Assembly: GCF_003675855.1 (NCBI RefSeq)
Contig: NZ_RCIH01000002.1
Location: forward strand, 62,001 to 126,000
Length of the DNA stretch: 64,000 bases
Direction of reading: 5' to 3'
From: Halostella salina
Lineage (GTDB): Archaea; Halobacteriota; Halobacteria; Halobacteriales; Natronoarchaeaceae
Position numbers and translations under genes: made by a program. A model generated the notes under the pieces. That model was not told the DNA's origin and searched no databases. It saw only the letters and a program-made list of their open reading frames with translations. Positions 50,688 through 64,000 of the stretch are shown here, in pieces. Position 1 is the first letter of the stretch, and each line of letters starts with the position of its first letter.

Positions 50688-51797
50688 TCAGATGGGTGAA
50701 ACCGGGCGGACCGCGGACCCGCTACGGCGGCGGTCAGCGTCCCCGTCGCCGGAGTCGGTGACGGTGAGCCACAGGTAGACGGTCCGGTAGGCGTTTCCGA
50801 CCGTCGGGTCGTCCGGGGCGTCGCCCCTGTACAGCAGGTAGGCGAGGCGGACGCGCTCGCCCGCGAACGGCGGCGACACGGTGTGCTGTCGCCGCCACGT
50901 CCCGTCCGAGTCCAGCCGGGGCGTGTAGCGGTGGAGCACGGTCCGCTCCACGACGCGGCCCCCGGCCGGGCCGGGACGCGACGCCCTCGCCGTCACCCGC
51001 TCGTCGGCCGTCCCGTTCCCTCTCGCGACGCGCTGCAGTTGCACGACGACCGTGTAGTCGGTCGCCGTTCCTTCTCGGTTTCGGACGCCGAGCGTGAGGT
51101 CGCGCTCCGAGCCGACACTGACGTTCCGCGGGTAGCCGTCGGCGACGAGGGCACCGGACTCGTTCTCGGTCACGAGGTACAGTTCCGTGTACCCGCCGTC
51201 GTCCGACGGGGCGAGCGCCGCGACGCCGACGCCGGCGAGCGCCAGGACGACCGCGGCGGCGAGCACGAGGTCGAGCGCCGTCCAGTCCCGACCCGTTCGG
51301 TCGACGGCGTCGGCGGACGCCGCGGGTCCGCGCGACGGCGGGTCGGGACGGACGCGCCCGGGGAGCCGCGACCGACGGACCGCCGCGTAGCCCGTCACGC
51401 CGACCGTCACGGCGGTCAGGCCGGCGACCAGCGGGAACAGCCGCACGCCGACGGGCGTGAACGTGAGCGCGATGCCGAGCGCGGCGGCGACGAGCGCGCT
51501 CGTCACGACGGCGAGCGCGATGCGTACGGCCGCCGTCGGCCTGCCGGCGTCGGCGTCGTCGCTCGCTCCCCCGCCCGACGGCCGCGGGAACAGCGCGGTG
51601 ACGACGGCGTACCCCGGCACGAACAGGACGAAGACGAGCCCGAACACCGGGCGCGCGGGCGTCCCGTTCAGCCCCGGCACCAGCACGAACAGGTCGGCGG
51701 CGGCCGTCAGGGCGAGGACCGCGATCAGGTCCGCACCGAGCCGCCGCTGGAGCTCGGCGAGCCGCGCGCCGCCGCCGGGTCGCGTGGGGCGTGTCAT
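50688..51797 (-). CDS. DUF1616 membrane protein
   Basis: A 369-residue protein with four N-terminal helices (AVLALTAAADLFVLVPGLNG, VFGLVFVLFVPGYAVVTALF, AVVTSALVAAALGIALTFTP, LVAGLTAVTVGVTGYAAVRR), a further helix (LDLVLAAAVVLALAGVGVAA) and a ~150-residue external beta domain (YTELYLVTENESGALVADGY, ERDLTLGVRNREGTATDYTV, RHTVSPPFAGERVRL). DUF1616 is an archaeal and bacterial family near surface-assembly genes; function unknown. It is the last gene of the FtsX/GT-C/ABC operon, seven nt after the ATPase stop. Confidence 0.82.
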   Translation of the reverse strand: MTRPTRPGGGARLAELQRRLGADLIAVLALTAAADLFVLVPGLNGTPARPVFGLVFVLFVPGYAVVTALFPRPSGGGASDDADAGRPTAAVRIALAVVTSALVAAALGIALTFTPVGVRLFPLVAGLTAVTVGVTGYAAVRRSRLPGRVRPDPPSRGPAASADAVDRTGRDWTALDLVLAAAVVLALAGVGVAALAPSDDGGYTELYLVTENESGALVADGYPRNVSVGSERDLTLGVRNREGTATDYTVVVQLQRVARGNGTADERVTARASRPGPAGGRVVERTVLHRYTPRLDSDGTWRRQHTVSPPFAGERVRLAYLLYRGDAPDDPTVGNAYRTVYLWLTVTDSGDGDADRRRSGSAVRPVSPI

Positions 51798-51804
51798 GGG
51801 TGGA

Positions 51805-52467
51805 TCAGTCCGGTGTGAGGGAGCCGTCCGCGAGCGTGAACCGGCGGTCGAACGACCCCGCGAGTCGCGGGTCGTGGCTCACCAGCAAGACCGCCGTGTC
51901 GAACGTCTCGTGGACGGTGAACAGGGTGTCCAGCACGTCGTCGGTCGTCTCGGGGTCCAGCTGGCCGGTCGGTTCGTCGGCGAGGACGACGCTCGGCCGG
52001 TTGGCGAGCGCGCGTGCGATGGCGACCCGCTGGCGCTCGCCGCCGGACAGCGCCGGCGGCCGCCTGTCGGCAAGCGGGGTGATCCCGAGCCGGTCGAACA
52101 GCGTGTCGAGCCACGCCTCGTCCACGTCGCCGGCGTGTTCCTGCGGGACGCGCGCGTTCTCGTAGGCCGTGAGGTCGTCGATGAGCCGGAACCCCTGGAA
52201 CACGAACCCGAGGTGGTCGCGCCGCAGCGCGGCGCGTTCGCGTTCGGACGCCGCGGTCGCGTCGGTCCCCCGGACCTCGACGGTCCCGCTGTCCGGCGCG
52301 GTGAGCAGGCCCAGCACCTCGAACAGCGTCGACTTCCCGGCCCCGCTCGCGCCGCGGACGAGCAGCCGGGCGTCGGGCGGCACCGCGACCGAAACGCCGT
52401 CGAGGACGCGCCGGTCGCCGCGGGCGAGCGTCACGTCGCGGGCGGCCAGCACGGGGGCGTCGCTCAC
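51805..52467 (-). CDS. ABC transporter ATPase (MacB/LolD type)
   Basis: A 220-residue ABC ATPase of the MacB/LolD/FtsE kind. Walker A is LVRGASGAGKSTLFEVLGLL, the Q-loop is LGFVFQGFRLIDDLTAYEN, the signature is ALSGGERQRVAIARALANRP, Walker B is VVLADEPTGQLDPET, and the H-loop is LLVSHDPRLAG. GTG at 52467 is used because it overlaps the previous stop by 4 nt. It should drive the FtsX-type permease two genes upstream. Translationally coupled in one operon. Confidence 0.92.
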   Translation of the reverse strand: MSDAPVLAARDVTLARGDRRVLDGVSVAVPPDARLLVRGASGAGKSTLFEVLGLLTAPDSGTVEVRGTDATAASERERAALRRDHLGFVFQGFRLIDDLTAYENARVPQEHAGDVDEAWLDTLFDRLGITPLADRRPPALSGGERQRVAIARALANRPSVVLADEPTGQLDPETTDDVLDTLFTVHETFDTAVLLVSHDPRLAGSFDRRFTLADGSLTPD

Positions 52468-54089
52468 GGGCCACCCCCCGGGAGCCCCGCGTCGCACCGG
52501 CCCGGCTCCCACCGCAGGACGATAGACGAGTCGGCTCCGCCGGCGTACACCACGTCGCCCGTCATCACCCACTCGTCGTAGGCCGACCGGGAAATGTCGA
52601 GCGGTTCGGTGGGACCGGGCGCGCCGACGGTCTTCCACGAACTCCGGGCGACGACTGGGCAGTCGGGCGGCGGCGCGTCGCCCCGGAGCCAGGCGGTCGT
52701 CGGCAGGTCGGTCACGCCGGCACCGCGGTAGTTGTACGCGACGAGCGCGACGTGGTCGTCGCTCGTCCAGCCGCCGTCGACGCGGTCCGTGGCGAACGTC
52801 GCCGCGTCGAGTTCGGCGGGGTCGGTGACGGGCTCGAACGGGAACGCCGCCAGCCCGGCGAAGGGGAGCGGGGCCGAGACGAGCACGGCGACGACGGCCG
52901 CCGCGGCGGCGACGCGCCCGAACGCCGGCCGCCGGCGGACCAGCACGGCGAGGCCGACCGCCGCGGCGACGACCAGCCCCGGGTGGACGAACGTCACCGA
53001 CCTGACGACCAGGTCCTCGTACACCGGCGTCCGGCCGGCCGTGAGCGCGAACCCGACCGCCGCGAGCGGGCCGAGGACGAGCGCGAACATCGCGAGACCC
53101 CGGTCGGAGGCGAGGCGGGACAGACCGACCCCGGCGGCGGCGAGCACGACGACCAGCGGCAGGGTCAGCGTCAGGAGCAGCGACGACGTCGTCGCGGTCC
53201 CCGGGTAGACCGCGACCGCCGCGTTCAGCACGAAGACGGCCACGCCAGCGCCGAAGACCGCGACCGCCGCGCCGCGCCGGACGGCGGCGGAGGCGGTGTC
53301 GAGCCACCTGGCCAGCGCGACGACGAGCACCACCCACGCGAGGAACAGCCCGAGCGAGGCGGAGACGCTGCCGGCCTTCGGGAGGTCGGCGGCCGCGTAG
53401 TAGCCGAACGTCAGCAGCCAGAAGCCGGCCGTCCCGAGCGCCCCGTACGCGAGCCGCCGCGTCGTGGGCCGCCGTGCGACCCCGAGAGCGACCAGCGTCG
53501 TCCCGACGAGCCCGGCGACGAACGCGCTCAGGCTGTGGACGACCGGCACCGTGACGGCCAGGGCCGCGGTCAGCGCGAGCCAGCGGCGGCGCTCCGTCCG
53601 CAGCGTCCGGCCGAGCGCGAGAGCGAGGCAGGCGACGACCGCCAGCCCGAACACCTCCGCGTTGACCGACATCGACCGGAACAGGTAGGGCCCCTCGACG
53701 GCCAGGGCGAGCCCCGCGAACGCGGCCGCGCCGCGCCGGACGGGGGCCGAAAAGTCGGCCGCGAGCGAGCGGGCGTACGCCATCGCGACCAGCGAGGGGA
53801 CGGTCGCCAGACAGGCGACGAGCGCCTGGGCCACGTACAGCGGGGCGACCCCCGTGACCTCGCTCACGACCGCGAGCAGCGTCGCGAACAGGTACTCGTC
53901 GGGTGCCGGCGCGGCCGGGCCGGCCAGCGCGACGCCGTCGGTCGCGAGGATCCGCTCCGCGCTGCTCACGAAGACGAACCCGTCGGTGTTGAACGGCAGC
54001 GGCGAGGCGTACAGCGACGAGAGGCGGGTCGCCGCGCCGACCGCGAGGACGGCCACAACCAGCAGCCAGTCGGGGCGGCGTCGGCTCAT
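52464..54089 (-). CDS. Large polytopic membrane protein, GT-C-like
   Basis: A 541-residue protein with about 12 helices and a ~120-residue C-terminal soluble domain. The first external loop SPLPFNTDGFVFVSSAERIL with an Asp after the first helix, and the next loop PAPDEYLFATLLAVVSEVTG, have the layout of GT-C glycosyltransferases (GT39/STT3 relatives), whose catalytic acid sits in the first loop. The tail (TSDDHVALVAYNYRGAGVTD, RSSWKTVGAPGPTEPLDISR) is typical of nothing I know. Lipid-linked sugar transfer is a guess from fold. It lies between the FtsX permease and ABC ATPase genes, coupled to both by 4-nt overlaps. Confidence 0.68.
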   Translation of the reverse strand: MSRRRPDWLLVVAVLAVGAATRLSSLYASPLPFNTDGFVFVSSAERILATDGVALAGPAAPAPDEYLFATLLAVVSEVTGVAPLYVAQALVACLATVPSLVAMAYARSLAADFSAPVRRGAAAFAGLALAVEGPYLFRSMSVNAEVFGLAVVACLALALGRTLRTERRRWLALTAALAVTVPVVHSLSAFVAGLVGTTLVALGVARRPTTRRLAYGALGTAGFWLLTFGYYAAADLPKAGSVSASLGLFLAWVVLVVALARWLDTASAAVRRGAAVAVFGAGVAVFVLNAAVAVYPGTATTSSLLLTLTLPLVVVLAAAGVGLSRLASDRGLAMFALVLGPLAAVGFALTAGRTPVYEDLVVRSVTFVHPGLVVAAAVGLAVLVRRRPAFGRVAAAAAVVAVLVSAPLPFAGLAAFPFEPVTDPAELDAATFATDRVDGGWTSDDHVALVAYNYRGAGVTDLPTTAWLRGDAPPPDCPVVARSSWKTVGAPGPTEPLDISRSAYDEWVMTGDVVYAGGADSSIVLRWEPGRCDAGLPGGGP

Positions 54090-56944
54090 CGCGACCCCCC
54101 GAGCAGCCGCGATGGAGCCACCGAACTGTACCGCCAGGCGACGACGCCCGCGCTGACGAGCGCCAGCGCGAGCGAGCCGAGGGCCAGCGGCCCGACGACG
54201 GAGAGCGGGACGCGGGGGGTCACGCGGACGCCGAACACGGTGAGCGTTCCGACGACGGAGAGCGTCCAGACCGTCGCCGCGGCGAGGGCGATGCTGACCG
54301 CCGCCGCCGGCAGCCCGATCCGGAGCGCGTCGCCGAGCACCAGCCGTCCGATCCGGCGCGGGCCAGCGCCCACCGCCCGGTGGACGCCGATGTCGCCGCG
54401 GCGGGCCTGGACGGCGTCGGCGAACGCCGCGACCGTGCTGCCGACCGTCATCACCACGCCCAGCGCCACGAGCGTCGCCAGCACGAGCCAGAGGTTGCCG
54501 AACACCCGCGAAAGCAGGCCGCCGGCTCCGACCCCGCCGGGAGCCTCGTCGCTCGACGCGACGGCGCTTGCCAGCCGTTCGTCGCCGGTCACGCGGTACG
54601 TCCCCGTCGCTGCCCCGCCGCCGGCGGTCACCTGAACGGTGTACTCGCCGGGCGGGCGTCGGTCGAGCGTCGCCGAGACGGTCCGGTCGCGTCCCGGAGC
54701 CAGTTCCAGCGGTTCCGAGACGGCCACGCCGGGACCGTCGACCGACAGCGTCCGGTCGAGCGACACCCCCCACGGGTTCCTGACGCGGACCCGGACGGAC
54801 GGGGTCGTGAACACGCCCGTCCGGTTCGGCGTCACGAGGCGGACGACGGGCTCGCGCCGCGCCCCGCGCTCGACGCGCAGCGCCTGCGTCGCGGAGCGGT
54901 TCCCCGCCGTGACCCGGACCGCGTACTCGCCGGGCGCGCTCGGCAGCCGGACCCGCGTCCGCCCGTCGTCGCCGACGCGCGCCGTCCGGTCGCCGAGCCG
55001 GACGGTCGCGTTCCCGACGGGCGCGCCGCCCGCCGTTCCGACGCCGACCCGGAGCGTCGCGTTCGGCGGGCCGACCTCGGGGAGCGGGGCGAGCACGAGC
55101 GTGTCGGCCGAGAGGACCCGGACCGTCCGCGTCAGGTCGCCGACCGTCACGACCCGGGTGCCTGCGCCGGGCGCGTCGAACCGGAGTTCGACCGTCCGGC
55201 GCTCGCCCCCGTCGAGCGTGACCCGCTTCGTCCGGCGCTGGTCGCCGAGCGTGGCACGGACCGTCCGCGACGCCGGCCCGGAATCGACGTTCCGGAGGCG
55301 GACCTCGACCGGGACCGTCTCGTCCGTGGCGACCCGCCGCGGCGCGCTCGTCCCGAGCACGACGACGCCCTCGGTCGTGCGGTTCGCGGCGGGCTCGCCG
55401 TAGCGGACGAGGTTCACCGACCCCTCGGGGACGCCCTCGAGGTGCCGCGCGAGCGGGAGGCTGACGAGGAGGTGGTCGTCGCTCGCGCCGTCGGCCGCGA
55501 ACGTGCCGACCACCTCGACGGTGCCGACCGCCGGCGTCGTGCTGCCGCCGAGCGCGAGTTCGTCGCCCGGGGCGAGGCCGTGGGTCCGCGCGAAGGCGGT
55601 CCCGACGGCCGCCTCGTCGGTCGCGTTCGGTGCCCGCCCGTCGACGACGCGGGCGTCGGTCACGGCGCTGTACGCGTCGAACTCCACCCCGCGGGCGGGG
55701 ACCGGCCGGCCGTCGTGGGCCAGGAACAGCAGGATCTCGGGGCTGGCGGCGACGCCGGAGCGCCGGAGCCGGTCGGCGTCCGCCGCCGGGACGTGGCTGT
55801 CGACCGGGTGGACGGCCCCGGGCTCGACGACCATCCCGCCGGACGCGCCGCCCGTGGCGCCGATCCCGCCGACGACGCCGGCCAGCGCGACCACAACGAG
55901 GACGAACGCGGCGAACACCGCGAGCGTGGCCGTCGTCGGGACGGCGGCCCCCGCCGGGAGAAACGATGGGCCGCCCGGCCACCGTCGGGTCGTCGCCGCC
56001 CCGGAGTCGAGCGGCGCGCCGCGAACCGCCGACCGGGCGGCCAGCGCGCCGGCGAGCAGTCCCACGCCGACGAGGGCGAGGAGGACGAGAGGGATCAGGC
56101 CGGCGGCGCGGGGGGTCACGCCCAGCGGGAGCCCGACCGGGAACCCGAGCGTCACGGCGGCGGTGACGGCGGCGTTCGGGACGACGACGCCGACCGCGTA
56201 GCCGAGCGTGACGCCGGCGAGCGTGAGCAGTCCCGCGCGGGCCGTCACGAGCAGGGCGACCCGTCGCCGGCTCGCGCCCGTCGCCCGGAGCACGGCGATC
56301 GACGACCGGCGGTCCCGGACCGTCATCCGGGTCACGCTGAACACGACGACGCCGACGAGCACGGCCACGCCGAGACAGACGACGCCGAGCACGCCGAGCA
56401 TCTGCCGGGTGCCGACGAGGAAGAAGGCGAGCGCGCCGGTGAGCGGCGCGCCCGACGCCGGGACCGGCGACGCCGACGCGCGCAGTGTCAGAGCGCGGTC
56501 GCTCCCCAGCGACGTCGCCGTCCCGGCGTCGGTCACGAGCCACGGGTCCGGGAACGGCGTCTCGCCGCTTCGCTCCCGGACCGTTCGCTCCAGAGTCGCC
56601 CGGTCGCCGACGAGCGTGCCCGTCCCGTTCGACGCCGGCCCGGCGACGCCGTCGGGCGGGTCCATCCCGAACGCGCCGCCCCGCGGGACGCCGACGACCG
56701 TTCGCTGGACGCCGTCGACGGTCGCGGTCGCCAGCGGGAACGTCGTCCCCTCGGCCCCCGTGGTCGTCGTGAGCGACACGGCCGTCTCGGAGCCGTGGTC
56801 GGCCGCCATCACCGTCGTCTGTCCGGAGACAGCGAGCAGGACGACGACTGCACCGACGAGGAAGGCGGCGGTCACGGCGACGACGAGGACGGCGAGGCGG
56901 TCCCGGCCGGACCACCGCACCACGAGCGACTGCCGGTAGCTCAT
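54086..56944 (-). CDS. FtsX-type ABC permease with two FtsX domains and Ig-like ectodomains
   Basis: A 952-residue permease. One N-terminal helix (LAVLVVAVTAAFLVGAVVVL) is followed by an ectodomain and a first FtsX domain, whose cytoplasmic loop reads RRSSIAVLRATGASRRRVAL. Another helix and a ~400-residue ectodomain follow, including Ig-like/CARDB-like units (VEVRLRNVDSGPASRTVRAT, NATVRLGDRTARVGDDGRTR). A second FtsX domain has the loop RRGDIGVHRAVGAGPRRIGR, so the protein carries both halves fused. This is much larger than MacB permeases. It should work with the ATPase at 51805-52467 in export or in pulling on surface components. It leads the operon; the palindrome at 56997-57014 lies 53 nt upstream. 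Confidence 0.87.
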   Translation of the reverse strand: MSYRQSLVVRWSGRDRLAVLVVAVTAAFLVGAVVVLLAVSGQTTVMAADHGSETAVSLTTTTGAEGTTFPLATATVDGVQRTVVGVPRGGAFGMDPPDGVAGPASNGTGTLVGDRATLERTVRERSGETPFPDPWLVTDAGTATSLGSDRALTLRASASPVPASGAPLTGALAFFLVGTRQMLGVLGVVCLGVAVLVGVVVFSVTRMTVRDRRSSIAVLRATGASRRRVALLVTARAGLLTLAGVTLGYAVGVVVPNAAVTAAVTLGFPVGLPLGVTPRAAGLIPLVLLALVGVGLLAGALAARSAVRGAPLDSGAATTRRWPGGPSFLPAGAAVPTTATLAVFAAFVLVVVALAGVVGGIGATGGASGGMVVEPGAVHPVDSHVPAADADRLRRSGVAASPEILLFLAHDGRPVPARGVEFDAYSAVTDARVVDGRAPNATDEAAVGTAFARTHGLAPGDELALGGSTTPAVGTVEVVGTFAADGASDDHLLVSLPLARHLEGVPEGSVNLVRYGEPAANRTTEGVVVLGTSAPRRVATDETVPVEVRLRNVDSGPASRTVRATLGDQRRTKRVTLDGGERRTVELRFDAPGAGTRVVTVGDLTRTVRVLSADTLVLAPLPEVGPPNATLRVGVGTAGGAPVGNATVRLGDRTARVGDDGRTRVRLPSAPGEYAVRVTAGNRSATQALRVERGARREPVVRLVTPNRTGVFTTPSVRVRVRNPWGVSLDRTLSVDGPGVAVSEPLELAPGRDRTVSATLDRRPPGEYTVQVTAGGGAATGTYRVTGDERLASAVASSDEAPGGVGAGGLLSRVFGNLWLVLATLVALGVVMTVGSTVAAFADAVQARRGDIGVHRAVGAGPRRIGRLVLGDALRIGLPAAAVSIALAAATVWTLSVVGTLTVFGVRVTPRVPLSVVGPLALGSLALALVSAGVVAWRYSSVAPSRLLGGSR

Positions 56945-56996: not shown

Positions 56997-57014
56997 TTTT
57001 TGGGCAGCCTAAAG
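56997..57014. promoter_or_regulatory. Iron-box-like palindrome between FtsX operon and plus-strand genes
   Basis: TTTTTGG-GCAG-CCTAAAG differs at two positions from the perfect palindrome at 59019-59036. TATA-like ATAAAT follows at 57015-57020. It could serve the minus-strand FtsX operon (start 56944) or the plus-strand unit (start 57123), or both. Confidence 0.5.
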
Positions 57015-57122
57015 ATAAATAGCACGGTTCGATACCGCGGCTTCAGCGGCGTGTCAGTCGGACCGGACACAACCGTCGGCTCGGACCCGACAGTTAAGCG
57101 GCCGGTTACCGACGTTCACACC

Positions 57123-57197
57123 ATGGGCGAGTCGAGGCTTGGGCGGTTCGTGGAGGGGCTTCGAGACGGAGGGCGACACGGGGGGCAATCTGCATGA
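57123..57197 (+). CDS. 24-residue small protein, upstream-coupled
   Basis: ATG at 57123 opens a frame MGESRLGRFVEGLRDGGRHG with four more residues, QSA before TGA, overlapping the next ATG (57194) by 4 nt. A TTAAG stretch at 57091-57095 lies about 28-32 nt ahead of it. It is Arg/Gly-rich and not obviously a membrane segment. Its 4-nt coupling to the membrane-protein gene supports translation, but no homolog is known to me. Confidence 0.4.
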   Translation: MGESRLGRFVEGLRDGGRHGGQSA

Positions 57198-57550
57198 CGG
57201 GAGTCCTCCAGTCGCTGTTCGACAGCTACATCGAGATCCACACCGCACAGCTGGGCGTCCTGCTCGGCCTGTTCGTCGGCGTTATCTACCGGGAGCGGCC
57301 GACGCTTGCCTACGCGGTGCTCACCGTCGGCGTGCTGTCGGCGTTCGGGTACGTCCCCACCATCGGGTTCGTGCTGTACGACCACGTCGCGGCGGTCATC
57401 ACGGTGAAGCCCTGGTACTTCCTGTCGGCGCTGTACGTCTCCACCGTCGCGAACCTGCTTGCGGTCGACTACGGGCCGGCGCTGTGGCGGCAGACGCTGG
57501 GCTCGTCCGACCTGCGGCGGGACGGCGTGGTAGAAGACGACAACGGGTAA
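57194..57550 (+). CDS. Small membrane protein
   Basis: A 118-residue protein with three helices: LQSLFDSYIEIHTAQLGVLL with LGLFVGVIYRE, LAYAVLTVGVLSAFGYVPTI, and WYFLSALYVSTVANLLAVDY. The polar ends suggest an inner-membrane protein. No family is recognised with confidence. Its stop codon at 57548 lies only a few nt from the end of the TnpB element, so the element is inserted right behind this gene. Confidence 0.65.
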   Translation: MTGVLQSLFDSYIEIHTAQLGVLLGLFVGVIYRERPTLAYAVLTVGVLSAFGYVPTIGFVLYDHVAAVITVKPWYFLSALYVSTVANLLAVDYGPALWRQTLGSSDLRRDGVVEDDNG

Positions 57551-57700
57551 ACTACCCCACCCTACTCGCTCACGGCTTCGCCGTTCGCTTCGTTGAGGGT
57601 GGGGCTTTCGCGTGGACTCCCGCTCTGGCCGGAACCCCCGGCAGGAGAGTCATATTCTCCGTTCGCGTTCAACATCCCGCGATTCAGGCGCACGCCTACG
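57551..57700 (-). ncRNA. Candidate omega-RNA (right end of TnpB element)
   Basis: The 3 prime end of tnpB and the sequence just past it fold into a nested hairpin. CCCCACCCT (57555-57563) pairs with AGGGTGGGG (57596-57604), and inside it ACGGC-TTC-GCCGT forms a smaller stem. TnpB systems make a guide RNA from exactly this place: scaffold from the element's right end, guide from the flanking host DNA. Extent into tnpB is estimated. Confidence 0.5.
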
Positions 57701-58839
57701 GGTGCGCCTCCGCCGTCTCCAGTTTGGTTACGGCGGAGATACCGTAGTCCGATGTTTTTCGCCGCGTTGTAGTCGGCGTGGTTCTCGTACCCGCATTTCA
57801 GGCACTCAAAGTCCTCACCTTCGCGGTTGTCTGGGTGGGTGAATCCACACGTTGAACACCGCCACGACGTATTCTCCGGGTCCACCTGCACTACGTCGAT
57901 GCCGTGGAGTTCGGCCTTGTATTCGACGTACTCGTACAACCGCTCAAACGCCCACTTGTGCCCCCACGACGCACCCGAGAGCCGGTCGCGGATGCCGGTC
58001 AACTTCTCGAAGGCGATAACCGTACAGCCGTTTTCGGCGGCTTCTTCGATGATGCCGTTCGTAATCCGGTGGAGCATCATCTTGAACCGCCCCGTCTCTT
58101 TGCGCCCGACCGACTGGATGTTTTCGTGGGCGTGACGCGACCCACACTGCTGGAGTGAGGCCCGCCGCTTCTCGTACTCCCGTCGCCAGTGGTCGAACTC
58201 GTGACCGCTCCAGAACGTACCCATCGACGTGACCGCGAGTTGGTTCACGCCGAGGTCAACGCCGAGGACTGTGCTGTGCCCGGTCGTTGCCTGCTCCGGC
58301 GTGTCGGTCTCCATCTCCGCCTTTGTGCGGAGGTGAAGGAACCACTCGCCGTCCTTGTTGTGGAGTTCCGCTCCCGTCACCTCGTAGTCGTCGTTGTCGA
58401 GATACCGACTGTGAGGTGTGTCGCGATCTGCGTCGGGCAGGACGTACTCAACTTCGATACGTCCGCCCACGGTTGCCAGCGACACGTACTCGTCGTGGAA
58501 TGTCGCACACCGCTTGTCGTAGACGACAGTAGGCTTCGAGAAGTGTGGTTTGCCCGCATACTTGCCCTGTTTCCAGCGGGCGACGACGCTCTGTACGGCG
58601 TCGGCGGCCTTGTTGCGAGCGTTCTGGACGAGATTCGCGTGCAATCGTGTCCGGTCGCGTACCTCGTCGTAGGTTTCCTCCTGCAACTGCGCCTTGCTTG
58701 TGGTTTTGTAGTCGCCCTGCCATGCGTGGTCCACGACGTAGTTGGCGGCCCACAGAAACTCGTCAACAGTTTCGCGGAGAAGTGCGGCATCGTCGCTGTC
58801 CACATCGAGTTTCACCGGGACAGTTCGCCGCATCTCCAT
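57562..58839 (-). CDS. tnpB: TnpB-family RNA-guided nuclease (IS200/IS605, IS1341 type)
   Basis: A 425-residue TnpB. The N-terminal wedge/REC part ([40 protein letters not shown]) precedes the RuvC nuclease. The RuvC acids are Asp in [18 protein letters not shown] (~195), Glu in [16 protein letters not shown] (~278) and Asp in [16 protein letters not shown] (~356). The zinc ribbon is [13 protein letters not shown] with FECLKCGYE. All are intact, so the nuclease may be active. No tnpA is seen nearby, so it depends on a transposase elsewhere. The GC-rich tail [20 protein letters not shown] is typical of haloarchaeal IS1341 proteins. ATG at 58839. Confidence 0.9.
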
Positions 58840-58860
58840 ACGTCAGATGTACCCCCGATA

Positions 58861-58869
58861 GTTTATTAA
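58861..58869 (-). promoter_or_regulatory. TATA (BoxA) element for tnpB
   Basis: TTAATAAAC on the minus strand lies 22-30 nt before the ATG at 58839, fitting a leaderless message. Confidence 0.5.
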
Positions 58870-58926
58870 CGTTGTGGAGAAAGGGCGGCAACAGTTCGTG
58901 GGACGTGGTGGGATTGTCGGCTTCCT

Positions 58927-58979
58927 CTCCGGCCTACTCACTCGCTTCGCTCGCTCCTTGAGGCCGGAGGCTCCGCCTC
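58927..58979. repeat. Two adjacent hairpins at the upstream end of the TnpB element
   Basis: CTCCGGCCT (58927-58935) pairs with AGGCCGGAG (58961-58969), with CGCTTCGCTCG in the loop. It is directly followed by GAGGC-TCC-GCCTC (58967-58979). The loop and edges (CCTACTC ... TTGAGG) resemble those of the hairpin at 57555-57604, so both ends of the element carry related structures. Confidence 0.6.
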
Positions 58980-59018
58980 GAATACGCTGACTCACGCCGA
59001 CTGCGGATGTAAAAGGTT

Positions 59019-59036
59019 TTTTAGGACGGCCTAAAA
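59019..59036 (+). promoter_or_regulatory. Perfect iron-box-like palindrome upstream of asparagine-synthetase-like gene
   Basis: TTTTAGG-ACGG-CCTAAAA has 7-bp perfect arms. Its right half overlaps the position where a TATA box for the ATG at 59063 would lie (26-31 nt ahead). DtxR/IdeR-type regulators bind TTAGG..CCTAA palindromes; binding here would block transcription. Confidence 0.65.
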
Positions 59037-59062
59037 CGACGGGTAACCGGAGCGACTCGCAC

Positions 59063-59137
59063 ATGCACAGCAACAGGCGGCCAGTCGGCGGAACCGGGCG
59101 GCGGACAGCGGACGCGGATCGAACCGGGCGGTGGTGA
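59063..59137 (+). CDS. 24-residue leader-like small ORF
   Basis: ATG at 59063 reads MHSNRRPVGGTGRRTADADR and TGRW before TGA at 59135-59137, one nt before the next ATG. It is Arg-rich and has no membrane segment. It would be the first frame on the transcript that starts beside the palindrome at 59019-59036. Translation is unproven. Confidence 0.35.
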   Translation: MHSNRRPVGGTGRRTADADRTGRW

Positions 59138-59138
59138 G

Positions 59139-60962
59139 ATGGTCGGACTATCCGGCGTCGTGGGCGACCACGTCGACGCCAGCGTCGAGACGATCCCGCC
59201 GACGGTCGACGACGAGCGGGCGAGCACGTATCGGGACGAGGGGATCGCGGTACGGTCGGCGTTCCACGAGGGGACGGCGACCGACCAGCCGGTCGAGGCG
59301 GCCGACGGGTCGCTCGTGTGGGTGTGGGGCGAGGTGTTCACCGTCACGGACGAGCGTGGCGGACGGCGGCGGGTCGATCCAGCGGAGACGGCGCGGGTGT
59401 GTGCCGGCCAGTACGACGAGTACGGCGACGGCTTCGTGGAGCGACTCGACGGCGAGTTCGTCGGGCTGCGCTACGACCCCGACGACGGGACCGCGACGTT
59501 CTTCGCCGACCGCGTCGGCGCGCGCCCCCTCTACTATGCCGTCGGCGACGGCTGTCTCGCGTTCTCGACGACCATCCAGACGGTCCCCGAAGTGCCGGGG
59601 TTCGAGCCCGCGTTCGCGGAGCCGTACCTCGCGGAGTATCTCTACTCACGTCGGGTTCAGGGGACGAAGACGCCGGTCGAGGGCGTCGAACAGATCGCGC
59701 CCGCGACGCTGCTGACGTACGACCCCGACTCCGGCGGGTTCGACGAGCGACAGTACTGGGAACCGCGGTACGACCCGGTCGACAAGCCACTGTCGTACTT
59801 CGTGTACGAACTGGCGAAGCGGTTCGAGCGGGCCGTCGCGGACCGGATGCCGAGGGAGGACGGCGACTACGGCCTCCTGCTGAGCGGCGGGAGCGACTCC
59901 CGGACGGTGCTCGCCGCCGGCGGGTCGGCGCTGGACTGCTATCACATGGGCGACGGGTGGAACCGCGAGGCGCGGGCCGCAAAGCGGGCGGCCGACGCCG
60001 CAGGGGCCGATTTCGAGCTGCTGGAGCGGGGGCTCGACTATCACGAGACGCTGCTGGAGCGGGCCGCGCCCATCCAGGAGTTCATCGGGCAGTTCCAGTC
60101 GGGGCACATGCTCGGGTACGCCGAGAAGCTCGCGGAGACCGACGCCCTGCTCACCGGGCTGTACTGCGACGTGCTGTTCGGGTCGTGGGGCGTCCCGCAG
60201 CGGGAAATCGACCTGCCGTTCGGCGTCACGCTGTGGCCGCCGGTCCCGGACGTACCGGTGACGCCCGCCGGGCACGTCGCCCAGCGGGAGGCCGACGGGA
60301 TGGCGCGCGACCCGGCCTTCGTCGACGCGCCGCCGTACGGGGAACTCATCGACGCGAACCTCCGCGACCGGGGGGGTCGGGTCGACGCGCACGGCGTCGA
60401 GTACGAGTCCGTCGGGACGCTGGCGCTCAGCCAGTACCTCTACCCGGTCACGAACGGGATCGGCTTCGACCTGTTCGCCGCCCTCCAGATCACGCCCACC
60501 CGGAACCCGCTGCTGGACCGCCGGCTGATCGACCTCCACCTCTCGATGCCGCTGAAGTACCGGCTGCGGTCCGACCCGGTCCACCGGGCGATGGAGGCGC
60601 TCGACCCGTCGCTGGCCGACATCCCCCACGCGTCGACCGGCGTCCCGGTCAGTTCCCACAAGGCGGCACACGTCGTCGGCGACCGCGCCCTCAACCAGGT
60701 CGCGAAGCTCACCAGTTCGGCCACCCACCGGACCGACGGCCCGATGCAGGACAAAAACGAGGTCATCCGGAACCACGACTTCTTCGAGCGCGCGCTCGAC
60801 CGGAACGAACAGCGGGGGAGGGCGCTCCCCTGTCTCGACTGGGCGGCCGTGCGGGAGACGTACCGGCGACATCAGGCGGGCGAGATACACGCCGGCGAGG
60901 AACTGTACCGGCTGGTGACGGTGCTGGAGACCCCGCTCGCGGAGCGGATCCTCGACGGGTAG
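59139..60962 (+). CDS. Asparagine-synthetase-like protein
   Basis: A 607-residue protein with the asparagine-synthetase-B architecture. The N-terminal Ntn-type domain starts VGLSGVVGDHVDASVETIPP; the catalytic Cys normally at residue 2 (MCG) is Val, so glutaminase activity should be lost. GEFVGLRYDPDDGTATFFAD and RPLYYAVGDGCLAFSTTIQT follow. The synthetase domain has the PP-loop YGLLLSGGSDSRTVLAAGGS (~residue 250), then GLYCDVLFGSWGVPQ. It may use ammonia, or activate a carboxyl group for another nucleophile. The convergent GT2 gene next door and the iron-box upstream hint at amide modification of a glycan or metallophore. No partner is proven. Confidence 0.85.
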   Translation: MVGLSGVVGDHVDASVETIPPTVDDERASTYRDEGIAVRSAFHEGTATDQPVEAADGSLVWVWGEVFTVTDERGGRRRVDPAETARVCAGQYDEYGDGFVERLDGEFVGLRYDPDDGTATFFADRVGARPLYYAVGDGCLAFSTTIQTVPEVPGFEPAFAEPYLAEYLYSRRVQGTKTPVEGVEQIAPATLLTYDPDSGGFDERQYWEPRYDPVDKPLSYFVYELAKRFERAVADRMPREDGDYGLLLSGGSDSRTVLAAGGSALDCYHMGDGWNREARAAKRAADAAGADFELLERGLDYHETLLERAAPIQEFIGQFQSGHMLGYAEKLAETDALLTGLYCDVLFGSWGVPQREIDLPFGVTLWPPVPDVPVTPAGHVAQREADGMARDPAFVDAPPYGELIDANLRDRGGRVDAHGVEYESVGTLALSQYLYPVTNGIGFDLFAALQITPTRNPLLDRRLIDLHLSMPLKYRLRSDPVHRAMEALDPSLADIPHASTGVPVSSHKAAHVVGDRALNQVAKLTSSATHRTDGPMQDKNEVIRNHDFFERALDRNEQRGRALPCLDWAAVRETYRRHQAGEIHAGEELYRLVTVLETPLAERILDG

Positions 60963-60964
60963 AG

Positions 60965-61837
60965 CTACGCGACGGCGGCCGGCAGGTGCTGGCGCAGGTA
61001 GCCCGCCGTCCGCGCCCACTTCAGCACGCAGGCGAGCAGGTACCACAGCGGCAGCGCGGTCGCCGGGGCGGACGCGTCCGCCACCGTCTCGCGGAACCCG
61101 AGGGGGTTGACCGGGAGGTAGTTCCGCGGGTCCAGCGTACTCCGCACGTCCAGCCGGTCGCCGTGATACCGGCGGATCTGCCCGCGGCCGCGGCCGATGC
61201 GGACGTTCTGTGCGAGCAGTTCACGCACGGTCGACCTGGCGGGGTGGTACAGCGTCACCGACGGCTCGAACGCCAGTTCGTACCCCGCCTCGTCGACCCG
61301 GCGGCCGAACTCCAGGTCCCCGTTCGACAGCAGGCGCTCGTCGAAGCGGCCCACGTCCTCGAACACCCGGCGTCGGGTGACGAGACAGCACGTCGGCGCG
61401 AAGCGGTGCTCCCTGACGTACCGCTCGACGGGGAACCCCGTCGCGCGCCGGAACCGCGAGACGGTTCCCTCGGCGGCGACGACCTCGACGCGACAGCCCA
61501 TGTAGTCCCGGTCGTCGGCCAGCATCCGCTCGGTGACCGACCGGACGTAGTCCGGCTCGACCCACATGTCGGCGTCGACGAAGCCGAGGACCTCCCCTCG
61601 TGCGGCCTCGATGCCGGCGTTCCGCGCCGCGTACGACCCCTGCACCGCGTCCTCGACGACGTGGCGGACGCGGTCCGACCGCGCGAACGCCCGGGCGACG
61701 GCGGTCGTCCCGTCGGTCGAGCCGTTGTCCGCGATGACGACCTCGTAGTCGGTCGCGGTCTGGTCCAGCAGCGAGTCGACCGTCGTCCGCAGGCCCTCGG
61801 GGTCGTTGTACACGGGGACGATGATGCTCGTTTGCAC
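60965..61837 (-). CDS. GT2-family glycosyltransferase
   Basis: A 290-residue GT-A enzyme. TSIIVPVYNDPEGLRTTVDS opens it, VVIADNGSTDGTTAVARAFA holds the UDP-binding Asp, and LGFVDADMWVEPDYVRSVTE supplies the D-x-D. The acceptor part has APTCCLVTRRRVFEDVGRFD and DLEFGRRVDEAGYELAFEPS with the base Asp. The C-terminal helix LPLWYLLACVLKWARTAGYL may anchor it. Start is GTG. It ends two nt from the convergent asparagine-synthetase-like gene. It probably adds a sugar to a surface glycan. Confidence 0.87.
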   Translation of the reverse strand: MQTSIIVPVYNDPEGLRTTVDSLLDQTATDYEVVIADNGSTDGTTAVARAFARSDRVRHVVEDAVQGSYAARNAGIEAARGEVLGFVDADMWVEPDYVRSVTERMLADDRDYMGCRVEVVAAEGTVSRFRRATGFPVERYVREHRFAPTCCLVTRRRVFEDVGRFDERLLSNGDLEFGRRVDEAGYELAFEPSVTLYHPARSTVRELLAQNVRIGRGRGQIRRYHGDRLDVRSTLDPRNYLPVNPLGFRETVADASAPATALPLWYLLACVLKWARTAGYLRQHLPAAVA

Positions 61838-61933
61838 GCGCTCGTCATCCGGATCGACCGGCCCGGCGTTAACTGCATCGCTTCCGACCCGGACCGCCGT
61901 CGCCCGGCCGCTCCGCCGCCGAATGTAAAGTCA

Positions 61934-61951
61934 TTTTAGGCCGGCCAAAAA
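61934..61951 (+). promoter_or_regulatory. Iron-box-like palindrome overlapping promoter of iron ABC importer
   Basis: TTTTAGG-CCGG-CCAAAAA lies 12-29 nt before the ATG at 61963, in the TATA position. It differs by one base from the perfect palindrome at 59019-59036. A DtxR/IdeR-type regulator here would control the ABC importer. Confidence 0.65.
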
Positions 61952-61962
61952 ACACCACTGGT

Positions 61963-63195
61963 ATGACCGGAAACGCGGACGACGCAGGCGGCGACGAGCA
62001 CCGGACCGTCTCCACTCGGCGCGGTCGTCGTGGGTTCCTGAAGCTCACCGGCGGCGTGACCGGCGCGGCCGCGCTCGCGGGCTGTCTCGGGAACGACGAC
62101 GAGGGGTCGACGTACTCGCGGGAGGGGTCGATCCCCGACGCCAAGACGTACGCCGCCGACGAGCTGTTCAACATCGAGGAGTGGCGGGGCTCCGGGCCGC
62201 TGATCGACGACCGCCCCACGGAGTACGAGGGCCGGTCGATGCTCGACCTGCCGGACCTCAGGGGCGAGCTGACGATCTACCTCGGCGGCGGCGAGGGCGG
62301 GCTGTACGAGAACCTGATGCGGCGGATCCAGCACACGTACCGCGACTTCACCGTCGACATCAGGAAGGCCCCCTCCTCGCAGCACGCGAACACCATCGTC
62401 GAGGAGGTCAACGCCGGCCAGAGCCCGGCGGACATCTTCTGGGCGATCGACGCCGGGTCGGTCGGGATCGTCTCCGAGAACGACGCGACCGTCGAACTCC
62501 CGGACCACCTCGTCTCCGAGATCCCGGACACGTACCACCCGACCGACCAGTGGGTCGGCACCATGGGCCGCGCACGGAGCATCCCGTTCAACACCAACGA
62601 GTTCTCGAAGTCGGAGATCCCAAACGACATATTCACGTTCGCGCGGGATCCACGGTTCGACAACGCGATGGGCTGGGCTCCGACCTACGGCGCGTTCCAG
62701 GCGTTCGTCACGGCGATGCGCCTCATCAACGGGGAGAGCGAGGCGCGCCAGTGGCTCAACGGGATGCAGGACCAGGGCGTCGGTACGTACGACAACGAAC
62801 TGGTCGTCGCCAATCGGGTCGCGAGCGGCGAGTTGAACGCGGGATTCGGGAACCACTACTACTCGCGGCTCGTGTACGAGGAGCGGCCCGACGCCCCGCT
62901 GGACCTCGCCTTCACGCAGGCCGACGCCGGCGCGCTCGTGAACTGCTCGGGGGCCGAGATCATCAAGAACACGCCGAACGAGACGCTGGCGGTGGACTTC
63001 ATCCACCACCTGCTCAGCATCGAGGCCCAGGAGTTCCTGACGACCCGCGGGTACGAGTACCCGCTGCTCCCGAGCATCCCGCCGGTCGGGGACCTCCCGA
63101 CGATCGACGAACTGAACCCGCCGGAGTTCGACCTCTCGCGGCTCGCGGACCTCGAACCGACGCTGCAACTCATGCGCGAGGTGGGCGTCCTGTAA
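61963..63195 (+). CDS. Iron-type ABC transporter substrate-binding lipoprotein
   Basis: A 410-residue extracellular binding protein. The Tat signal RRGRRGFLKLTGGVTGAAAL ends in the lipobox LAGC, so it is a Tat-exported lipoprotein. The mature part has LPDLRGELTIYLGGGEGGLY, NAGQSPADIFWAIDAGSVGI, WAPTYGAFQAFVTAMRLI and GAEIIKNTPNETLAVDFIHH, the order of iron(III)/thiamine-type binding proteins (FbpA-like). It precedes the permease by one nt of spacing beyond the stop. The upstream palindrome and the permease type support iron. Other substrates such as thiamine are possible. Confidence 0.87.
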   Translation: MTGNADDAGGDEHRTVSTRRGRRGFLKLTGGVTGAAALAGCLGNDDEGSTYSREGSIPDAKTYAADELFNIEEWRGSGPLIDDRPTEYEGRSMLDLPDLRGELTIYLGGGEGGLYENLMRRIQHTYRDFTVDIRKAPSSQHANTIVEEVNAGQSPADIFWAIDAGSVGIVSENDATVELPDHLVSEIPDTYHPTDQWVGTMGRARSIPFNTNEFSKSEIPNDIFTFARDPRFDNAMGWAPTYGAFQAFVTAMRLINGESEARQWLNGMQDQGVGTYDNELVVANRVASGELNAGFGNHYYSRLVYEERPDAPLDLAFTQADAGALVNCSGAEIIKNTPNETLAVDFIHHLLSIEAQEFLTTRGYEYPLLPSIPPVGDLPTIDELNPPEFDLSRLADLEPTLQLMREVGVL

Positions 63196-63196
63196 C

Positions 63197-64000
63197 ATGT
63201 CGGTGGCCGACAGGGTAGTTGCACAGTTCGACCGCGAGGACGCCGACGGGTATCCGGTCGGTCTCACCCTCCTGAGCGGTGCGATCGCCGCGGCGGTGCT
63301 CTCGCCGCTCGCGTGGATCGTCATCCGCGTCCTGCAGGTCGACACCGACTACGCGCTGTCGATCATCGCGCGCCCGACGATCGTCGAGATCCTGGTGACG
63401 AGCCTCGGCCTCGTCGCCGCCGTCACCGGGGCGTCGATCGGCATCGGCGTGCCGCTCGCGTTCCTGACGGTGCGGACGGACCTCCCGTTCCGCCGGTTCT
63501 GGACCGTCGCCGTCGCCCTGCCGCTTGTCATCCCAAGTTACCTGGGCGCGTTCACGTTCATCTCGGCGTTCGGTCCGGGCGGGGTACTCGCGGACGCGCT
63601 CGCGCCCCTCGGCGTCGAGTCGATCCCCTCGATCTACGGGTTCTTCGGGACGACGCTCGTGCTCACGCTGTACACCTACCCCTACGTGTTCATCACCACG
63701 CGGGCGTCGCTGCTGTCGTTCGACCAGCAGCTCGTCGAGGCCGCGCGGACGCTCGGGACGACGCGCTGGGAGGCGTTCAAACGCGTGACGCTCCGGCAGC
63801 TTCTGCCCGGCATCACGTCGGGCGCGCTGCTGGTCGCGCTGTACACGCTCTCGGACTTCGGCACGCCGTCGCTCATGCGGCTGGACGTGTTCACGCGCGT
63901 CATCTTCGTCGAGTACAACACGTTCGGCCGCGAGACCGCCGCCATGCTCTCCCTGCAGCTGCTGGCGATCACCGCGGTGATCCTCGCCATCGAGTCGCGC
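63197..64000 (+). CDS. Iron-type ABC transporter permease, 3 prime end outside window
   Basis: The frame from ATG at 63197 stays open to the window edge (268 codons). It is an FbpB-like permease: helices SGAIAAAVLSPLAWIVIRVL, TSLGLVAAVTGASIGIGVPL, FWTVAVALPLVIPSYLGAFT, then YGFFGTTLVLTLYTYPYVFI. The EAA loop for ATPase contact is LVEAARTLGTTRWEAFKRVT. These proteins have two such halves fused, so about half is missing. Operon with the binding protein; an ATPase probably follows. Confidence 0.9.
   Translation, partial: MSVADRVVAQFDREDADGYPVGLTLLSGAIAAAVLSPLAWIVIRVLQVDTDYALSIIARPTIVEILVTSLGLVAAVTGASIGIGVPLAFLTVRTDLPFRRFWTVAVALPLVIPSYLGAFTFISAFGPGGVLADALAPLGVESIPSIYGFFGTTLVLTLYTYPYVFITTRASLLSFDQQLVEAARTLGTTRWEAFKRVTLRQLLPGITSGALLVALYTLSDFGTPSLMRLDVFTRVIFVEYNTFGRETAAMLSLQLLAITAVILAIESR

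Follow-up and report, generated by a model that had tools for sequence, protein, structure and literature searches.

A palindrome shared by three promoters of Halostella salina is very probably a DtxR-type iron box and precedes genes for AsnB-like proteins

The DNA considered here (the window) is a stretch of 64,000 nt, positions 62001 to 126000 of contig C2 in the 3.74 Mb genome of Halostella salina; other genomes, contigs and loci are cited by our G, C and L numbers. Three transcription units of the window, namely an asparagine-synthetase-like gene (AsnB1 in the following), a ferric-iron importer operon and a leftward operon headed by an FtsX-family permease gene (Table 1), are each preceded by a copy of the palindrome TTTTAGG-N4-CCTAAAA. 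A preliminary description had placed these copies at 59019 (no mismatch), 61934 (one) and 56997 (two) and proposed that they form an iron regulon under a DtxR/IdeR-type regulator. Searching for the motif, with the reversed pattern as control, we found all three at these positions. The window contains four matches at ≤3 mismatches, whereas 100 dinucleotide shuffles gave 0.32 on average and never as many as four. At ≤2 mismatches, the whole genome has 18 sites versus 3 for the control, and these sites lie mainly before iron genes rather than being scattered over unrelated places. Twelve related genomes possess between 1 and 18 sites each at ≤1 mismatch, with no control match in any of them.

The genes beside the other copies in the H. 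salina genome encode a DtxR-family regulator, two Peripla_BP_2 (siderophore-type) binding proteins, a FecCD permease, ferritin, a NifU-like protein and a class-III, diaminobutyrate-type aminotransferase (C8:90.9k; box ∼11 nt from the start). The densest box cluster of the genome lies before the NifU-like gene, with three box-like sites in ∼105 nt (L024:11363-11467; C8:163862-163966). Less clear as targets are an alcohol-dehydrogenase-like gene and a gene pair with two boxes in between (L022:6104-6156; C6:225103-225155); the pair encodes a metallo-beta-lactamase-fold protein and a DUF7553 protein and has no evident connection with iron. The regulator, a protein of 147 aa (PF01325, 4e-12), has a box ∼106 nt upstream of its own start, and orthologues of at least 50% identity have one within ∼1.5 kb in 10/10 genomes. 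By comparison, loci of more distant DtxR paralogues have a box in only 2/20 cases, namely the proteins that come closest to the regulator in G169 and in G128. Boxes also occur at siderophore loci of other haloarchaea: two stand directly before the first gene of the siderophore operon on pHSAL1 of Halobacterium salinarum, two precede iucA in the siderophore operon of Haloferax larsenii, and all nine IucA/IucC-type loci that we examined have them. The corresponding operon of Haloferax volcanii is induced by iron limitation, as a passage in PMC11349517 reports with reference to Niessen and Soppa 2020 (PMC7407949).

Because copies precede iron genes, a DtxR-family regulator gene and the siderophore operons of Halobacterium and Haloferax, the palindrome is very probably a DtxR-type iron operator. 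The proposal of a shared iron box is thereby strongly backed, and the boxes of AsnB1 and the importer are kept across species; it is weak for the FtsX operon and unsupported for a small membrane protein gene next to it, as described below. That the box answers manganese or another metal instead of iron seems improbable to us, although MntR-type models give the 147-aa regulator its highest scores, all well short of the cut-offs, and its alignment does not show the usual metal-site histidine near residue 125. The targets, among them an FbpA-type importer, siderophore operons, FecCD, ferritin and the NifU-like protein, are iron genes; in addition, the siderophore operon of H. volcanii is reported to respond to iron limitation, and the same box precedes its counterpart in H. 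larsenii.

The window ends within a larger gene island. Just beyond its right edge, the minus strand of C2:128026-131783 encodes an acetyltransferase (PF13523, 4e-53), a lysine/ornithine-type N-monooxygenase (PF13434, 5e-113) and another AsnB-like protein, called AsnB2 here; the box of this operon lies at C2:131908. Acetyltransferase and monooxygenase genes overlap by 4 nt in one operon, which is one of the features by which nonribosomal peptide synthetase (NRPS)-independent siderophore (NIS) pathways are recognized. Around this operon are the FbpA-type importer, an MsbA-like exporter, a DUF4330 protein, three GT4 and one GT2 glycosyltransferases, a PMT_2-like protein and a sulfatase-like protein, as well as a polyisoprenyl-phosphate sugar transferase with two boxes (C2:141274 and C2:141386). 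The same gene set, rearranged, is present in G149, G208, G040, G218, G128 and G169, which represent five further families and bring the total to seven haloarchaea from six families; in G023, of the same genus, the monooxygenase is found at the same place. A box precedes the acetyltransferase operon and the iron-binding protein gene in 7/7 islands, and the sugar-transferase gene in all six islands that have it (G208 does not). Altogether, the seven islands hold 27 boxes at ≤2 mismatches versus 0 for the control. One might still regard the palindromes as products of chance or as TATA-like promoter decoration that no regulator reads, given that their arms are AT-rich and overlap TATA positions. 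With the control at zero in 12 genomes and in the islands, functionally coherent targets and positions kept across genera, these counts exclude such an explanation in practice.

Control of the importer by iron is to be expected, since it is of the FbpA/HitA type, and the earlier assignment of a box to an iron-type ABC importer holds. Its promoter carries the box in all six other islands; in G208, G128 and G169, the distance to the start is 11 to 13 nt, as expected for a leaderless transcript.

Table 1. Coordinates of the boxes and genes under discussion (window positions unless prefixed with C2).
Feature	Position	Strand	Basis or remark
DUF1616 protein, end of FtsX operon	50688..51797	-	PF07760 8.2e-81; kept next to LolD in G218, G128, G208
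LolD-like ABC ATPase of FtsX operon	51805..52467	-	PF00005 3.8e-31; 77-83% identical in islands
541-aa membrane protein of FtsX operon	52464..54089	-	no Pfam match; 63-67% identical neighbours of FtsX in G208, G218, G128
FtsX-family permease, 952 aa, first gene of leftward operon	54086..56944	-	PF02687 4.4e-17
Iron box, 2 mismatches	56997..57014	.	between TATA-like TTTATC and start of leftward FtsX operon
Iron box, perfect copy TTTTAGGACGGCCTAAAA	59019..59036	.	AsnB1 promoter; motif search
Leader ORF, 24 codons (MHSNRRPVGGTGRRTADADRTGRW)	59062..59136	+	stop ends 2 nt before AsnB1 start
AsnB1, asparagine-synthetase-like, 607 aa	59139..60962	+	PF00733 1.1e-11, GATase_7; alignment
GT2-family glycosyltransferase	60965..61837	-	PF00535 5.1e-33
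Iron box, 1 mismatch	61934..61951	.	12 nt before start of ferric importer operon
Ferric-iron-binding protein of ABC importer, FbpA/HitA type	61963..63195	+	best solved relatives iron-binding: 7w3w (E 1.4e-47), FbpA, HitA
Importer permease, 550 aa, runs off window	63197..64000	+	PF00528, PF00005, TOBE_2 (importer domain matches); gene table
Importer ATPase	C2:126853-128013		follows permease gene

What do the AsnB-like proteins do in such a setting? AsnB1 is 68% identical to AsnB2 of the siderophore-type operon. In all nine AsnB-like proteins that we aligned, the PP-loop motif SGGSDS is invariant, in agreement with the general pattern SGGxDS, and the N-terminal MCG reads MVG, such that valine replaces the catalytic cysteine in AsnB1 and in every other island AsnB. 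A canonical glutamine-dependent asparagine synthetase is therefore ruled out for AsnB1, which has no catalytic cysteine and scores 86 bits against a cut-off of 267. The cysteine loss does not set the island proteins apart, as valine or another residue is found at this position, too, in more distant haloarchaeal AsnB-like proteins encoded elsewhere than in the islands; for this reason, it argues against a glutamine-dependent amidotransferase but not for a new enzyme. Among solved structures, the AsnB profile best matches 7ylz, named a hydroxyamidotransferase (E 3e-16), followed by asparagine synthetase and beta-lactam synthetase (2e-8). A structure prediction for AsnB1 from nine sequences reached a mean pLDDT of 57, too poor to use. 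For the amidotransferase of the preliminary description, here AsnB1, the missing glutaminase cysteine and the paralogue within a siderophore-type operon make a role as amide ligase in iron scavenging the better reading, compared to that of an amidotransferase with no part in it. We infer that the island AsnB-like proteins may be amide ligases in the making of a hydroxamate chelator.

A less exotic explanation would be that they are ordinary glycan-modifying enzymes, for instance amidating uronic acids, which merely share iron control with the neighbouring uptake system. AsnB-like proteins of 35 to 45% identity do occur at other haloarchaeal loci, and some model matches are to exopolysaccharide-type amidotransferases, albeit far below cut-off. 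We nonetheless consider this unlikely: in 7/7 islands, AsnB2 shares an operon with the monooxygenase gene, at a distance of 2 nt; AsnB1 keeps an iron box of its own at two unrelated places in other species; and, again, the glutaminase cysteine is gone.

These two places bear closer description. In G149 (L115:9102-10928) and in Halostagnicola sp. A56 (L155), AsnB1 with its own iron box is a single gene among unrelated neighbours, apart from the island. At both orthologues, the box lies 102 to 105 nt before the MVG start; in H. salina, the perfect copy is 102 nt upstream of the AsnB1 start. A search of genome contigs with AsnB1 returned one named relative, and the plasmid and phage collections contained no island AsnB copy above 60% identity. 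A TnpB-family (IS200/IS605 OrfB) gene is present at 57562-58839 of the window, within the island and between the FtsX side and AsnB1. That the box belongs to this element is ruled out, as AsnB1 is preceded by the box also in G149 and Halostagnicola sp. A56, where tnpB is absent.

While the box does precede the asparagine-synthetase-like gene, as originally described, it lies only ∼26 nt upstream of a 24-codon leader ORF that runs into AsnB1. Leader ORFs of 21 to 36 aa, with a stop that touches or overlaps the next start, are found at 10/10 promoters, comprising those of three AsnB1 genes and seven acetyltransferase operons (window 59062-59136; L019:10803-10883, that is C2:131802-131882; G149 L115; Halostagnicola L155; L067 to L072). 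In a shuffle test, this layout was observed nine times versus 1.15 expected, the tenth promoter having been seen separately. The leader proteins show no sequence conservation between genera, which rules them out as ribosomal-peptide precursors of a lasso-type AsnB cyclase system; neither AsnB1 nor AsnB2 has a peptidase gene beside it. The leaders are possibly launchers of leaderless translation.

The island monooxygenases form one clade, separate at 100/100 support from the monooxygenases linked to IucA/IucC. PF04183, the IucA/IucC domain, is present in 51/51 genomes that have only the latter clade, but absent from five of the seven island genomes (H. salina, G040, G218, G128 and G169); we therefore do not count the island among the NIS pathways, although it might function in a similar way. 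Among solved structures, both enzymes come closest to those acting on siderophores or diamines: the monooxygenase resembles cadaverine, putrescine and lysine hydroxylases, and the acetyltransferase resembles BH2621, AAC(6')-Ib, MbtK and DfoC.

Taken together, we think it moderately probable that the box is the operator of a DtxR/Idr-type repressor and that the boxed island is an iron-acquisition unit which makes a hydroxamate by means of AsnB-like ligases instead of IucA/IucC. When iron is plentiful, the metal-loaded repressor would occupy the box, over or next to the TATA element or the start of mostly leaderless promoters, and block transcription; upon iron starvation, its release would turn on the boxed uptake genes. 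A single acquisition island would then supply the FbpA-type importer, the acetyltransferase-monooxygenase-AsnB2 operon, AsnB1, and the sugar transferase with its glycosyltransferases and exporter. Monooxygenase and acetyltransferase would act on a diamine or a diamino acid to give an N-acetyl-N-hydroxy group, a hydroxamate, and the glutaminase-dead AsnB-like proteins might couple this unit to a carboxylate through an amide bond, in place of IucA/IucC, which take this step in other haloarchaea. Several observations weigh against this proposal. G149 and G208 do carry IucA/IucC elsewhere in the genome. G129 has an island-clade monooxygenase alone (L073:9300-10652, G129:C1), without AsnB, acetyltransferase or box, alongside a normal IucA/IucC cluster. 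For the diaminobutyrate decarboxylase on which the usual pathway relies, the H. salina genome offers no more than a weak, partial match. Lastly, some boxed genomes, such as G040, have no orthologue of the 147-aa regulator at ≥50% identity, and another member of the DtxR family may therefore bind there.

Two kinds of assembly are known for hydroxamate siderophores, one by NRPS and the other by IucA/IucC-type synthetases. If our proposal is correct, AsnB-like amide ligases would be a third enzyme type and open a new route to these compounds, one that is missed by current genome-mining rules built on IucA/IucC. Should the linked glycan genes share in the product, this would moreover amount to a novel means of retaining iron on the surface of archaeal cells.

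How might such a link look? The boxed sugar transferase, together with the glycosyltransferases, could build a lipid-linked oligosaccharide with an acidic sugar to which the AsnB-like ligase attaches the hydroxamate, and the MsbA/PglK-like exporter could flip it outward, so that the chelator stays at the surface and the FbpA-type importer collects its iron. We regard this as possible but doubtful. In its favor, glycosyltransferase genes accompany the acetyltransferase-monooxygenase-AsnB operon in all seven genomes, which come from six families, and in G040 and G218 the GT2 gene of the window has orthologues that come after AsnB, in one operon and with 4-nt overlaps (L069, L070). Such overlaps have been described as signs of translational coupling in Haloferax (PMC7407949). 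Every island with the sugar-transferase gene has a box before it, and the island importer is of a type that binds ferric iron itself rather than a siderophore. Moreover, related glycan genes without hydroxamate genes (G034, G061, G085) showed no box in ∼77 kb, a comparison of three control loci, two of which are poorly called. On the other hand, glycan and siderophore genes can adjoin without a common product. The absence of the sugar transferase from G208 does not fit, and the boxed siderophore-type uptake genes elsewhere in the H. salina genome (Peripla_BP_2, FecCD) would suit a soluble siderophore. Put in general terms, haloarchaea would produce, in iron starvation only, a siderophore tethered to the surface, with AsnB-attached hydroxamates on a glycan of the lipid-linked or cell-wall kind, and an FbpA-type importer would empty it; this strikes us as slightly less likely again. 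Our literature search found nothing on AsnB-like siderophore enzymes or hydroxamate glycans.

The third box of the window was originally assigned to the FtsX operon together with small-membrane-protein genes. It fits the leftward FtsX promoter, with TTTATC just upstream and the FtsX start ∼53 nt away, and the same layout is kept in G218, where TTTATC accompanies the box TTTATCTTTAGGCTATCCAAAAA (given also as CTTTAGGCTNNCCAAAAA). FtsX orthologues are located within the island or close to it in G208, G218, G128 and G169. Counting H. salina, the box is conserved at two of six orthologues, there being none at the FtsX genes of G128, G169, G203 and G208; iron control of the operon is thus plausible in H. 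salina without being a general rule. For the small membrane protein encoded from 57194, control by the box is improbable: the protein has no relatives in the compared loci, and the box is ∼110 nt before its leader ORF. This leader, a 24-codon ORF at 57124-57197 (MGESRLGRFVEGLRDGGRHGGQSA), overlaps the small membrane gene by 4 nt and shows the same layout as the leaders described above, without a box at its own promoter.

How does the island compare with known systems? With its binding protein, fused permease and TOBE_2 ATPase, and clear sequence similarity to FbpA and HitA, the importer resembles FbpABC/HitABC systems and is ordinary except that it lies within the island and shares the box with it. 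As for the AsnB-like proteins, a PP-loop synthetase domain is common to them and to amide-forming members of the AsnB family such as beta-lactam synthetase, lasso cyclases and 7ylz, and loss of the N-terminal cysteine is known for beta-lactam synthetase. They differ from these enzymes in scoring far below every curated cut-off and in their linkage to a monooxygenase and an acetyltransferase under an iron box. The schizokinen-type NIS cluster of H. volcanii (dat-bdb-iucABDC) has related N-monooxygenase and acetyltransferase genes, 4-nt overlaps and, in related clusters, boxes. The island, in contrast, has no IucA/IucC but an AsnB-like gene in place of the synthetase, a monooxygenase of a separate clade, and attached glycan genes and an FbpA-type importer. 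In our literature search, which did not cover Leyn and Rodionov 2015, we found no account of AsnB-like enzymes, a sugar transferase or an FtsX operon as iron-controlled. Haloarchaeal DtxR/Idr/SirR regulons (Idr1 and Idr2 of Halobacterium; Idr, SirR and TroR of Haloferax) likewise have a dyad box before genes for iron uptake, iron storage and siderophores, and a DtxR-family regulator gene adjoining a box; the H. salina set would differ from them by taking in the AsnB-like enzymes, the polyisoprenyl-phosphate sugar transferase and perhaps the FtsX operon.

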